From Desulfococcaceae bacterium HSG8 (lineage in GTDB: Bacteria; Desulfobacterota; Desulfobacteria; Desulfobacterales; 4be13): a DNA stretch of 32,874 bases. Made by a program: the position numbers and the translations under genes. The stretch lies in NCBI GenBank assembly GCA_030378015.1, contig JAUCGG010000041.1:1-32874 (forward strand), in the 5' to 3' direction. Of the stretch, positions 2,446 through 12,162 are shown in pieces (positions within the stretch are counted from its first letter, which is position 1; each line of letters begins with the position of its first letter). The notes under the pieces were generated by a model. The model saw only the letters and a list, made by a program, of their open reading frames with translations. It searched no databases and had not been told where the DNA came from.

Positions 2446-4974
2446 ATGATCTTTAATTTTCTGACAAAAGTTTTCGGAAGTAAAAACGAACGAGAGATAA
2501 AAAGGCTTCTGCCCATTGTGGAAGATATCAATTCCCTGGAACCCGAATTCCAGGCCATGAGTGATGACAAACTGAAAAATCAGACAAATGTCTTCAGAGA
2601 GCGTTTTGAAAACGGGGAACCCCTTGATGAAATGCTTCCTGAAGCCTTTGCAACAGTAAAAGAAGCCTCTTGGCGGACACTGGAAATGCGGCATTTTGAT
2701 GCCCAGCTTATAGGCGGAATGGTTCTTCACCGGGGAAAAATTGCGGAAATGAAGACCGGTGAGGGAAAAACCCTGGTTGCCACCCTGTCTGCCTATCTGA
2801 ATGCTATTTCAGGCAAGGGGGTTCACGTTATCACGGTAAATGATTACCTGGCAAAACGCGATACAGAATGGATGGGGCAGATTTACAATTTTCTCGGTCT
2901 CTCCGTGGGCACCATCGTACACGGTTTGGATGATACTGAACGACAAGAGGCGTATCTCTCTGATATCACTTACGGAACGAATAATGAATTCGGTTTCGAC
3001 TATCTGAGAGATAACATGAAATTCAACAAAGAACTCCTGGTACAGAGGCATCTGAATTATGCCATTGTGGATGAGGTGGACAGCATACTTGTTGATGAAG
3101 CAAGAACCCCGCTGATCATATCAGGCCCGGCCGAGAAATCCACGGATCTTTATTACCAGGTCAACAAAATCATTCCGCGCCTTGCCCGTGATAAGGATTA
3201 TACCATTGATGAAAAGGCCCGGACCGTTGTACTGACCGAGGAAGGGGTCGCTAGTGCCGAAGATATATTAAGTGTTGATAATCTGTATGACCCGAAATAT
3301 ATAGAACTCCTGCATCATATAAATCAGGCTCTCAAGGCTCATACCCTGTTCAAACGTGATGTTGACTATATAGTCAAAAAAGGGGAAGTTATCATTGTTG
3401 ATGAATTTACCGGCCGCCTGATGCCCGGGCGCCGTTACAGCGAAGGACTTCACCAGGCCCTCGAAGCCAAAGAAGACGTCAAAATAGAAAATGAAAACCA
3501 GACCCTTGCCACGATCACATTTCAGAACTATTTTAGAATGTATGATAAGCTTTCCGGCATGACAGGAACAGCAGATACCGAAGCTGCTGAGTTCAAAAAA
3601 ATATATGATCTTGATGTTTCGGTGGTTCCCACACACAGGCCCATGGTTCGGGCAGATCACCCGGATGCTATCTATAAAACCAGGAAGGAAAAATTCAAAG
3701 CAGTTATAGATGAAATTGAGTCCCTGCATGAGAGAGAGCAGCCTGTCCTGGTGGGAACGATTTCAATAGATGTTTCGGAAAGTCTGAGTAAAAAATTGAA
3801 AATGCGGGGAATTCCCCACACAGTCCTGAATGCCAAACACCATGAAAAAGAAGCTGAAATTGTTTCAATGGCGGGCCAGAGAGGCGTGGTGACAATTTCG
3901 ACAAACATGGCGGGCCGAGGTACGGATATTGTCCTGGGTGAAGGTGTCACAGAACTGGGAGGTCTTCACATCATCGGCACGGAGCGCCATGAGAGCAGGC
4001 GGATTGATAATCAGCTCAGGGGGCGTTCGGGCCGGCAGGGGGACCCCGGATCATCCCGGTTTTACCTGGCCCTGGAGGATGATCTCCTCAGGTTATTCGG
4101 CGGGGATCGGATCACCGGGGCAATGGAATGGATGGGAATGGAAGAGGGCGAACCCATTGAGCATAACTGGATCAGCAAGGCCATTGAAAACGCCCAGTCA
4201 AAGGTGGAAGCACGTAATTTTGATATGCGCAAACACCTGCTTGAGTATGATGATGTAATGAATCAGCAGCGGGAGGTTATTTACAAACAGCGCAGGGAAG
4301 CACTGAGCGGGGAAGATATCAAAGATGCCATCGAGGACATGATGGCGGAAAAGTCCGAAGAAATAGCGGATATGTTTGCTGATGAGACCATTCTTCCCGA
4401 GGACTGGGACTGGAAAAATCTAAAAGACGCTGTGTTCAAGCAGTTCAACTTCCGGCCGGAGATTGATGATGACACACTTGACGGGTTAAGCAGGGACGGA
4501 CTGGCACAACTGATTGTTGACGAGGCCTGCGATATATATAATGAAAAAGAATCCGAAGTCGGGGCATATGAATTCAGGCAGATAGAACGTATGGTGATGC
4601 TGCAGACAGTGGACAGCCTGTGGAAGGATAACCTTCTCAGTATGGATCATCTGAAAGAAGGGATCGGCCTCCGTGGATATGCCCAGCAGAACCCGCTGAT
4701 TGTATATAAAAAAGAGGGATTTGAGATATTCAGCAATATGATCTCCAGGATTAAGGAAGAAACCCTGGAGATATTGTTCAAAATTCAGATAGACAGAGCC
4801 GAAAAGCTGAATGACCTTATGCAGCCTGAGGATCAGGAACTTGTATTTTCCAGCGGAGACAGTGTGGAAAGCAGGAAAAAGGAACCTGTGAAACGCGCTG
4901 AAAAGAAGATCGGCAGAAATGCCCCGTGTCCCTGCGGAAGCGGAAAAAAATATAAAAAGTGTTGCGGAACGTGA
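2446..4974 (+). CDS. secA: Protein translocase ATPase SecA
   Basis: SecA is the cytosolic motor that drives unfolded preproteins through SecYEG. The 842 residues are typical. Walker A is MKTGEGKT (102-109), the DEAD-type Walker B region is [15 protein letters not shown] near 207-221, and the second nucleotide-binding half shows [10 protein letters not shown] and [23 protein letters not shown]. The C-terminus carries the zinc-binding [13 protein letters not shown] tail used for SecB or lipid contact. AAGGAA (2428-2433) is a plausible ribosome site for the ATG. The stop TGA lies inside the first unit of a GTGAAAC array (acg tga aac). clpS follows 78 bases downstream, so secA-clpS-clpA-aat may be one transcript. 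Confidence 0.98.
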
Positions 4975-8691: not shown

Positions 8692-11490
8692 ATGACCGAA
8701 ACTGACAAAAAACTGGCCCAGTTGAAAGCAGCCTATGAGAGCGGCATCCTGGATGAGGATACATATATCTCACTGAAAAACCTGGCCGTGGAAAACCGGG
8801 AAAAACCCGATGCGATCAAAGATTCTCGGATCGGTATTCTCGGTGATCATGCCAGGTTGGAAGGCGATATACACCACGGGGACCGCTTCGGCATTGAAAC
8901 CGGCCGCGATGCTGCTGTTGCAAAGGATCACAGGACAGCGTCTGTTTCCAAAGATACGAATATCCGGGCCCGTGACATCCAAAGTGCCAATGTCGCTGAC
9001 AAAATAGATAATCTCACACAGAACCGTGGCAATATCGTTTATGCCAAAAACGGTGCGACCGTTATCATGGGCGAGCATCTGAAAGACAAACCCGATCTGA
9101 GCTTTGAAATCCGGGAATACTGCAAGAAGGCGGAATCACTCCATTATACGATCCCCCTTGCAGGCTTTAAAACCAGACTTCGGGTTCCTATCCGCATCGA
9201 GGATATTTATGTGCCCCTGAGGGCCGTGGCGGATATGCGTTCCACGGGCCAAAGCTGCTTCGGCGATGCGGAAGATGCGGAAAAGCATCTGCGGGAATGC
9301 GGCGAAAGCAGGGAAATCCCCCTGCCGGAAGCCTTTCATATGGCTGATAAGATAGGCCGAAGAGGAATTGTTATCCTGGGTGATCCGGGTTCGGGAAAAA
9401 CCACCCATCTGAAGCGTCTCCTGCTGTGGTGTTTTCGCGGGGGGCTGGAGAAACTGGGACTGCCCGAGAATATGATACCGGTATTCCTGCCCCTGAGAGA
9501 ACTGAAAGACCTTTCCGGGGGCCTGGATGCCTTCATACAGGATCAGTTGAACCAGCGGCATCTGAAAACCCCCGAAGGTTTCGGAGAACGTATGCTTGCC
9601 CGGGGAAACCTGCTTCTCCTGTTTGACGGGCTGGACGAAGTCGCGGACCCTGATCACCGGGCAAGGGTATCCCGGTGGATCGAGGAAGCTCTTCCCCTGT
9701 ACGACACCTGTTATTTTGTCGTTACCTGCCGCTTTGCCGGTTATTCGGACAAGGTGCAGTTGGAAGCCCGCTTTCTTGAGATGCACATACGGCCTATGGA
9801 TGAGAAACAGGCGCAGGAGTTTGTACATAACTGGTACAGGATTGTGGAAACCGGGATTCGCGGGGATGAGAAGCAGGCGAATACTATCGCGGAGCAGGAG
9901 GCGGAAAAGCTTATCCGGCGGCTTCGCAGGCCCGAATTCCGGGCACGCAGGGTGTTCGAGCTTACACGGAATCCCCTGCTGCTGACAAATCTCTGCCTGG
10001 TGCATCGCGACCGGGGGAATCTCCCGAGAAGCCGAGCAAGGCTGTATGAAGAGTGTACGGATGTCCTCCTCGAGCTTTGGCGGGATGCCATCGGGTATGA
10101 GTCAAAGATCAATGCACAGACCGGCAGTAGGATACTCCAGCCGGCCGCGCTCTGGCTCCACCAGGAGGAAGGAAGGACGAGGGCACGGGCAGATGAGCTT
10201 GGCCCCGTGATTGAGCCTGCCCTGAAGGCAGTGAGCTGGCCCCACGGAACTGCCCGTGATTTCCTGGAGGTCGTGAGGAATGAGAGCGGCCTGCTTACGG
10301 GATGGGATCAGGAAAATTACGGGTTTATGCACCTGGGATTCCAAGAGTACCTGGCAGCACGGGAGATACGGCGGAAGGCTTTCACTGATCCGTCTGTACT
10401 CCGGGAGCTTGCCCGGCGGTTCGGTGAAAGCTGGTGGCAGGAGGTCGGGCTGATCCTGCTTGCTTTGGAAGACCCTTCGCTTTTTGTGCCGTACATGAGA
10501 GAGATTGTTAAACTGCCCGGTTTTACGGAGCATCCCGATCTGGTTGAGATGTGCCTGGATGACGCGGCTGAGACCTCGACGGAGCCGTTTACGGAACTGC
10601 TGGAAAAAGACCCGGGGGATGACCGTGAACTGTGGAAGCGGCAACTCATGGCCCTCCGGATCGCGGAGCGGCTTGATCCTTCGGTGATCGGGAGCCTGGA
10701 GCCGCTTATGAAAGATCATCCATACAAGGATATCCGGCAGTGGTTCGGGGAACAGGGCCGGCAGGCAGGGCAGGATGTCATCCGGGCAGAACCGGGCGGT
10801 TACGAACTGGTGAGAATACCGGGCGGGTCATTTATGATGGGTTCTCCGGATACCGAGGGAGGGCGTTATAAAAACGAAGGCCCCTTGCATAAGGTATCTG
10901 TATCTGATTTTTACATGGGCCGGTACCCGGTGACGAATGAGGAATACGGGCGGTTCCTGGAAGCGAACCCGGATGCGGAGGAGCCGGAATACTGGAGTGA
11001 CAGGCAGTATAATCAGTCCCGGCAGCCCGTGGTCGGAGTAAGCTGGCATGATGCAAAGCAGTACGCGGAATGGGCAGGTCTGCAACTGCCTTCCGAGGCA
11101 CAGTGGGAATATGCATGCCGGGCCGGCACGCAAACCAGGTATTATACCGGGGATTCCGAGGATGATCTTGGCAGGGCAGGATGGTACAGGGAGAATTCGG
11201 GTGGTCAGCATCATCCTGTGGGCAAAAAAGAACCCAATGCTTTCGGCTTGTATGACATGCATGGGAATGTGTGGGAGTGGTGTGAGGATTGGCACGGGGA
11301 TTATCTCCCGGATGCCGTGAAAGATACTGAGGGTCCTGATCAAGTCTCGTCCCGTGTCTTACGGGGCGGCGGCTGGAACCGCTTCGCCAGGGACTGCCGG
11401 TCGGCGCGCCGGTACGGGAGCTCGCCTGGTGCCCGTTCCGGCCGCTACGGGTTCCGGCTGGCTTTCTCCCCAGGTCAGCAGGTCAGCTAA
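8692..11490 (+). CDS. NACHT NTPase with C-terminal FGE-sulfatase (CLec-fold) domain; probable DGR target
   Basis: The 932-residue STAND-type protein starts with a SHOCT-like helix pair (about 5-35, LKAAYESGILDEDTYISLK), then a polar region I cannot assign (40-130). The NACHT NTPase follows: Walker A GDPGSGKT (230-237), Walker B LLLLFDGLDEV (307-317) and a sensor-like TCR (345-347). A helical region (about 380-690) leads to an FGE-sulfatase domain (about 702-927) with IPGGSFMMGSP, LPSEAQWEYACRAGT, GLYDMHGNVWEWCEDW and GFRLA. Of the two FGE copper-binding cysteines only the second aligns (Cys902; the first is Arg897), so enzymatic activity is unlikely. A ligand-sensing role, as in bacterial NACHT immune proteins, is inferred. 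AGGAAA (8680-8685) supports the start. No partner gene is adjacent. Confidence 0.9.
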   Translation: MTETDKKLAQLKAAYESGILDEDTYISLKNLAVENREKPDAIKDSRIGILGDHARLEGDIHHGDRFGIETGRDAAVAKDHRTASVSKDTNIRARDIQSANVADKIDNLTQNRGNIVYAKNGATVIMGEHLKDKPDLSFEIREYCKKAESLHYTIPLAGFKTRLRVPIRIEDIYVPLRAVADMRSTGQSCFGDAEDAEKHLRECGESREIPLPEAFHMADKIGRRGIVILGDPGSGKTTHLKRLLLWCFRGGLEKLGLPENMIPVFLPLRELKDLSGGLDAFIQDQLNQRHLKTPEGFGERMLARGNLLLLFDGLDEVADPDHRARVSRWIEEALPLYDTCYFVVTCRFAGYSDKVQLEARFLEMHIRPMDEKQAQEFVHNWYRIVETGIRGDEKQANTIAEQEAEKLIRRLRRPEFRARRVFELTRNPLLLTNLCLVHRDRGNLPRSRARLYEECTDVLLELWRDAIGYESKINAQTGSRILQPAALWLHQEEGRTRARADELGPVIEPALKAVSWPHGTARDFLEVVRNESGLLTGWDQENYGFMHLGFQEYLAAREIRRKAFTDPSVLRELARRFGESWWQEVGLILLALEDPSLFVPYMREIVKLPGFTEHPDLVEMCLDDAAETSTEPFTELLEKDPGDDRELWKRQLMALRIAERLDPSVIGSLEPLMKDHPYKDIRQWFGEQGRQAGQDVIRAEPGGYELVRIPGGSFMMGSPDTEGGRYKNEGPLHKVSVSDFYMGRYPVTNEEYGRFLEANPDAEEPEYWSDRQYNQSRQPVVGVSWHDAKQYAEWAGLQLPSEAQWEYACRAGTQTRYYTGDSEDDLGRAGWYRENSGGQHHPVGKKEPNAFGLYDMHGNVWEWCEDWHGDYLPDAVKDTEGPDQVSSRVLRGGGWNRFARDCRSARRYGSSPGARSGRYGFRLAFSPGQQVS
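11377..11448 (+). other. Candidate DGR variable region in the FGE domain
   Basis: These codons encode residues 896-919, directly after the conserved RGGGW and before GFRLA, the place where DGR variable regions end FGE/CLec-fold target proteins. Positions that are usually Asn (AAC) in such templates here read CGC, TTC, GAC, CGC, TAC, AGC, GCC, TCC, GGC, CGC and TAC. All keep the final C, as expected if only adenines were mutated. Only 7 of 72 bases are A. Neither a template repeat nor a reverse transcriptase is in this window, so they would have to lie elsewhere in the genome. Confidence 0.6.
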
Positions 11491-11663
11491 CAGGTACAGG
11501 CAGGCAGGAGGAATTCGCACCCCATCGGGACGGATCAGCCGCACGGAGGGCGTCGCCTGTGTCAGAACTCGGATAGCCAGGATTAAAGGATGGACAGGAT
11601 GAGTGCCAGGGGTCGGGAACTACACAGATTGCATTTAGTAAGGATTGATTGGCATTAATCATC

Positions 11664-11746
11664 GTAGGGTGGGGCTTGCCCCACCGATTCTTATTATTAT
11701 TAATTATTTGAAATTATTGAAATTGGTGGGGCAAGCCCCACCCTAC
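11664..11746. repeat. GTAGGGTGGGGCTTGCCCCACC palindrome, copy 1
   Basis: Arms at 11664-11685 and 11725-11746 are perfect inverted repeats with a 39-base AT-rich loop. Each arm is itself nearly palindromic (ggtggggcttgccccacc), so hairpins can form within or between arms. Confidence 0.92.
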
Positions 11747-11749
11747 AAC

Positions 11750-11853
11750 AACTACACAGATTGCATTTAGTAAGGATAATTGGTATTTGGCTGAACGGAA
11801 ATCAATTTTTATTTAATAAAAATCAATCCTTATTAAATGCAATCTGTGTAGTT
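11750..11853. repeat. 28-bp inverted repeat around an AT-rich core
   Basis: The arm beginning aactacacagattgcattta (11750-11777) pairs with 11826-11853 with one mismatch, around a 48-base core. The arm sequence also occurs alone at 11618 and 11911. It looks like a small palindromic insertion that brings a third, inverted copy of a dispersed repeat. Confidence 0.85.
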
Positions 11854-11956
11854 CTCATGCCAGGCAGTGTCAGAACTCGGATAGCCAGGATTAAAGGATG
11901 TACAGGATGAAACTACACAGATTGCATTTAGTAAGGATTGATTGGCATTAATCATC

Positions 11957-12039
11957 GTAGGGTGGGGCTTGCCCCACCGATTCTGATTATTATTAATTGT
12001 TTGAAATTATTGAAATTGGTGGGGCAAGCCCCACCCTAC
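11957..12039. repeat. GTAGGGTGGGGCTTGCCCCACC palindrome, copy 2
   Basis: It has the same arms as copy 1, at 11957-11978 and 12018-12039, with a loop that differs at only a few bases (gattctgattatt instead of gattcttattatt). Confidence 0.92.
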
Positions 12040-12079
12040 TGAAATTATCGCCGGGCATGAGATGATCATTTGAATCATC

Positions 12080-12162
12080 GTAGGGTGGGGCTTGCCCCAC
12101 CGATTCTGATTATTATTAATTGTTTGAAATTATTGAAATTGGTGGGGCAAGCCCCACCCTAC
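12080..12162. repeat. GTAGGGTGGGGCTTGCCCCACC palindrome, copy 3
   Basis: It is a near-identical tandem duplicate of copy 2, with the same loop and the same following bases (tgaaattatcgc), about 123 bases away. The copies are recent enough to be almost unchanged. Confidence 0.92.

Follow-up and report, generated by a model that had tools for sequence, protein, structure and literature searches.

The NACHT–FGE receptor gene and its surroundings

The window, i.e., the whole 32,874-nucleotide stretch of contig JAUCGG010000041.1 from Desulfococcaceae bacterium HSG8, encodes a large receptor-like protein whose gene and associated features are laid out as follows:

8692..11490, + strand: NACHT–FGE receptor gene (ORF call with ATG start, 932 aa; orthologues 61–72% identical outside the variable region)
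8692..9096, + strand: N-terminal stretch, residues 1–135, with neither a Pfam nor a PADLOC match and with no effector recognised
9367..9837, + strand: NACHT NTPase domain, residues 226–382, with the P-loop GDPGSGKTT (Pfam PF05729, 6.6e-18)
10804..11463, + strand: FGE-type C-type-lectin-fold (CLec) domain, residues 705–924, the predicted sensor (Pfam PF03781, FGE-sulfatase, 8.6e-59)
11347..11457, + strand: DGR-type variable region (VR), 37 codons, residues 886–922, from alignment with the template on contig C307 and VR comparisons
11470..11481, + strand: CCAGGTCAGCAG, an IMH-like acceptor-type end with GGTCAG at 11473–11478, from comparison with the family-2 VRs and templates
11511..11549, + strand: left half of a palindromic MITE-like element, which is complete behind the sister VR genes on C121 and C155

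The fusion of a NACHT NTPase to an FGE/CLec-fold domain, proposed in an earlier sequence-only reading of this DNA, is borne out by the two Pfam matches, and the P-loop-bearing NACHT domain is the feature that marks membership in the STAND/NACHT class; no PADLOC model matches the 932-aa receptor. Of the neighbours examined, those upstream encode a leucyl/phenylalanyl-tRNA protein transferase and a ClpA-like AAA protein, and those downstream M28 and M14 peptidases. Further, a dense array of palindromic MITE/REP-like repeats lies downstream of the receptor gene (11617–12162), and long palindromes are likewise found immediately 3' of the VR in the sister genes on C121 and C155.

A PDB sequence search with the FGE domain recovered as its top match TvpA, a DGR variable protein of Treponema denticola (2y3c, 5e-31), which ranked above the formylglycine-generating enzymes, and a Foldseek search with its AlphaFold model (pLDDT 80.5, lower in the VR) matched both FGE and TvpA folds. 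TvpA shares with the window domain the FGE-type CLec fold and the C-terminal VR, but its solved chain is a 294-residue protein lacking an NTPase. The formylglycine-generating enzyme SUMF1 also has the same fold (TM-score about 0.8); however, SUMF1-type FGEs possess two catalytic cysteines, whereas in the window domain, as aligned to 6muj and 2q17, one of these positions near the C-terminus is a gap and the other an alanine. Catalysis of the FGE type by this domain was rejected on that ground. Taken together, the TvpA match, the missing cysteines and the shared FGE/TvpA fold make it more likely that the domain is a binding scaffold than an enzyme.

The variable region and its family

The bounds of the VR and its 13 expected variable codons (residues 887, 890, 896–898, 901, 908–910, 914 and 916–918) were set by aligning the tail with the C307 template. 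The sequence-only reading had confined the VR to residues 896–919: the DGR origin it assigned to this segment stands, but its bounds do not, the full VR being longer. Its remark that adenine is nearly absent there held on recounting, with 7 A in the 72 nucleotides of 11377–11448 as against 23% A in the receptor gene overall; indeed, all 26 in-frame 72-nt segments of the gene with at most seven A fall within 11341–11487. Likewise, its observation that the codons are almost all NNC where templates carry AAC is matched by the counts: 11 of the 13 codons for which the template is expected to have AAC or AAA end in C, as against 25% of codons elsewhere in the gene (binomial p ~1.3e-5).

The window VR belongs to a family (family 2) of which the same genome has at least five other members that are intact and in frame, on contigs C121, C155, C148, C106 and C151; they vary at the columns where the C307 template has A. 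Pairwise comparison of the six VRs revealed a crossover between codon positions: the expected variable codons mismatch in 69% of cases at positions 1 and 2 and in only 15% at position 3, whereas the framework codons show the opposite, with 12% at positions 1 and 2 and 32% at position 3. Moreover, all 26 position-1/2 columns in the variable codons vary, as against nine of 48 in the framework (Fisher p = 1e-12). We infer that this crossover arises from copying an AAC-rich template rather than from ordinary protein selection. Thus, the tail displays a characteristic feature of DGR targets, namely a 3'-terminal VR that varies only at template-A positions, as judged from both homologous templates and sister VRs.

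Other family-2 tails are shorter or more divergent (C105 and C128) or broken (C211, C75 and C384). The N-terminal partners of the family, with names read off the sequences without a profile test, include a protein kinase (C121), caspase-like domains (C155, C148 and C106), a peptidase-like domain (C151) and NACHT domains (C105 and the window). Framework divergence among the family-2 VRs is 13–20%. The window VR differs from its sisters at 12–16 of 81 non-A sites, with 14 of 81 (about 17%) for C121, and from every template examined at 15 or more. On C384, the FGE-tail remnant (LRLVISPGQQ followed by a stop; L042:2505–2560 of G000) lies immediately 3' of a group II intron whose RT frame is disrupted.

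Beyond the GFRL motif, the family-2 VRs run on into ...CCAGGTCAGCAG, with the GGTCAG end present in the window and in most members of the family. Templates of this type in related genomes mostly end instead in GCTCA[C/T]; of seven templates compared, six have this end or one close to it. The window thus carries an acceptor-type IMH end distinct from the template-type end, paralleling the BPP-1 DGR, in which IMH and IMH* differ. An IMH and a downstream hairpin are described as target requirements (PMC3240598). Two VR-like diversified tails, L186 (G002:C1:2137377) and L197 (G027:C297:1155), break this donor/acceptor rule and end in the template-type GCTCGC/GCTCAC.

Templates, reverse transcriptases and orthologues

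The assembly of this genome (6.0 Mb, 81.5% complete) contains an A-rich template on C307 (7239–7459) with four VRs (family 1) distributed over three contigs, in the genes at C307:6231, C307:29648, C373:8011 and C167:34171. The C373 copy is frameshifted through a short deletion. In the three VRs readable in frame, 22, 15 and 17 of the 30 template adenines are mismatched, as against 1, 0 and 2 of the 81 other sites, i.e., 54 of 57 mismatches are at adenines. Remote templating, with one template and VRs on three contigs, is therefore present in this genome. As the template of the window VR itself, the C307 sequence was rejected: it mismatches that VR at 24 of 81 non-A sites, as opposed to 0–2 of 81 for its own VRs.

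In related genomes, the gene order is accessory gene, RT and template, with the RT–template unit being compact. At C307, an HRDC-domain accessory gene is found upstream of the template, but there is no RT; its place is occupied by a perfect 29-bp inverted repeat, and copies of one arm of this repeat are widespread in the genome (the cassette of HRDC gene, 29-bp-arm palindrome and template is L041:1640–2460, or G000:C307:6639–7459). An acceptor gene, the accessory gene and the template share this one contig. The missing RT may reflect a misassembly at the repeat. RT genes replaced by MITE-like arrays are known from Thiohalocapsa (Doré et al. 2024, PMC10907252), much as at C307.

The window itself showed neither an RT nor an accessory gene nor a template, in agreement with the sequence-only reading as regards the RT and the template. 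A search of the whole 81.5%-complete assembly uncovered no DGR RT, even as the same search recovered DGR RTs in several relatives (genomes of other genera). The RT on C20 was rejected as a DGR RT: its QGSVLSP sequence and the cas2-like ORFs nearby mark it as CRISPR-associated. The remaining RT hits in the genome were of the group II intron type or fragments. The search for a cognate template in the same assembly yielded only other VRs and the C307 template. When templates of the relatives were used as queries against this genome, only C307 and the known VRs matched, and one such query, covering its template in part, had no match. Searching by pattern for a further template (CGSAACARSAAC; TCCGGCT..CAGCTCRC) recovered just C307 and the VR on C121. 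Hence, of the earlier proposal that the gene is a remote DGR target whose RT and template lie elsewhere in the genome, the remote mode of templating is upheld by C307, but the template found is not the cognate one, and neither the cognate template nor a DGR RT is present in the assembly.

By similarity, the orthologues of the receptor are L150 and L151, from deltaproteobacterial MAGs, and L110 from the genome G043. They are 61–65% identical to it over residues 131–704 and 68–72% over 705–880. In the VR, each shares with it 75–83% of the framework and only 0–2 of the 13 variable residues. With the three comparisons pooled, identical residues amount to four of 39 at variable sites, 56 of 72 in the VR framework and 366 of 528 in the remaining FGE domain. 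The L110 gene is followed by an accessory ORF of the HRDC type, as read from its likeness to the L109 accessory ORF. Between the template of G043 (contig C83, L111) and the L110 VR there are mismatches at 13 of 22 adenines and six of 83 other sites; for the VR of a second NACHT–FGE gene, which adjoins the template, the figures are 16 of 22 and three of 83, respectively. Given this adjacent accessory ORF and a VR matching the template except mainly at A, it is very probable that L110 still is, or recently was, a target of a DGR. Elsewhere in the family, G003 has a DGR RT with a template and accessory genes. The single-contig genome G002, complete to 94%, contains a fragment of a family-2 VR and no clear DGR RT, a point that counts against a DGR-written tail in the window gene. 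On contig C709 of G004, two genes (L107:1340–1610 and 3730–4000) are identical from the middle of the VR into the 3' flank, with different 5' VR halves, and one of the two copies is fused in frame to a radical-SAM activase-like gene; this suggests that the VR cassette moves by recombination there.

A NACHT sensor with a probable DGR-written surface

From its anatomy, paralogues and orthologues, we consider it highly probable that the window gene encodes a NACHT sensor with a DGR-written VR. Briefly, we advance the following mechanism. The C-terminal FGE/CLec domain would be the binding part of a STAND (NACHT) receptor. A template RNA would have been copied by an error-prone RT with randomisation of the template adenines, and the resulting cDNA would have supplanted the gene's 3' end, i.e., its last 37 codons, up to the IMH-like site. 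By analogy with the biology of STAND proteins, ligand-binding at the diversified surface might then trigger oligomerisation via the NACHT domain and a cell-protective or suicidal response. The receptor gene, which lies in no DGR cassette, would be a remote target, and its RT and template would either reside in the unassembled ~19% of the genome or have been lost, as the RT was at C307.

Against this, diversifying selection on an ordinary surface loop of the FGE domain might explain the tail. Variation at this surface is possible in FGE domains, and further FGE genes in the genome (C320, C172a and C144) likewise show differences there, in codons that are not restricted to NNC. However, amino-acid selection fails to account for fixed third bases beside free first and second ones, for variation confined to template-A columns or for the acceptor end common to the VRs. 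The codon-position crossover and the template comparisons in practice refute this alternative, which we regard as highly improbable.

The high confidence in a DGR-written VR applies to that proposition as a whole, and two sub-cases, a VR that is still being rewritten and one that no longer is, together account for about all of it. The framework mismatch with C121, set against the 0–2 of 81 in freshly templated VRs, suggests that the window VR was not rewritten recently. Between a template of its own that has escaped detection and a long period without rewriting, we slightly prefer the latter. Accordingly phrased, the VR would once have been DGR-written and now change by ordinary mutation and occasional recombination between VR copies, a scenario to which we accord about an even chance. 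In its favour are the framework divergence among the family-2 VRs with the dominance of third-position changes in framework codons, the decayed copies on C211, C75 and C384, the frameshifted VR on C373, the palindromic repeat in place of the RT at C307 and the hybrid gene pair of G004. Nevertheless, drift at the third position has been smaller in the NNC codons than in the framework codons (15% versus 32%), and the window ORF and its acceptor end motif are intact. Continued rewriting by an RT and cognate template in the unassembled part of the genome is a more doubtful proposition, albeit one to be taken seriously: the assembly is incomplete, the near-perfect match of the family-1 VRs to their template implies that mutagenic homing was recent in the lineage, and the compactness of the RT–template unit in relatives means that a single gap could hide both. 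It has to contend with the drift of the window VR from every sister VR and template examined (12–24 non-A mismatches of about 81) and with the absence of the RT from C307 despite an acceptor gene, accessory gene and template on one contig. The earlier notion of a receptor with changing specificity is hence sustained as to a DGR-origin VR on a STAND-type receptor, but finds no DGR RT and a drifted framework on the other side.

DGR-diversified CLec/FGE domains on NACHT or nSTAND NTPases have been described before (Doré et al. 2024, PMC10907252), including such STAND NTPase–CLec sensors in DGR 3 and DGR 6 of Thiohalocapsa PB-PSB1 and in clade 5D DGRs. Like the window gene, these combine an uncharacterised N-terminus, a central NACHT/STAND NTPase and a C-terminal FGE/CLec domain with the VR. 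Unlike them, the window gene is solitary, without an adjacent cassette, RT or template, and its closest orthologues are in deltaproteobacterial MAGs. Remote variable proteins are known from cyanobacterial DGRs (PMC7517822), where CLec genes likewise lie at a distance from the DGR and have 3' ends that resemble the template; their template, however, is known in the same genome, while the cognate template is missing from the present assembly. DGRs also diversify FGE/FGS domains in NTPase conflict systems (Kaur et al. 2020, PMC7159879), but those are MoxR–vWA/VMAP ternary systems as opposed to a single NACHT protein. The window receptor is thus an addition to the known DGR-diversified NACHT–CLec sensors, in an unusual state, i.e., remote and RT-less in the assembly. 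It extends by one NACHT receptor the short list of bacterial immune-type sensors whose binding surface was made by a DGR, and the existence of orthologues with and without an adjacent DGR makes the fate of such a sensor after loss of the retroelement testable.

More speculatively, and with little likelihood in our estimation, a lineage with many dispersed DGR-born sensor tails (on NACHT, caspase-like, kinase and other proteins) that has lost its RT might reshuffle finished VR cassettes by recombination. If true, this would be an RT-independent continuation of DGR diversity, via recombination from the middle of the VR into the downstream flank.
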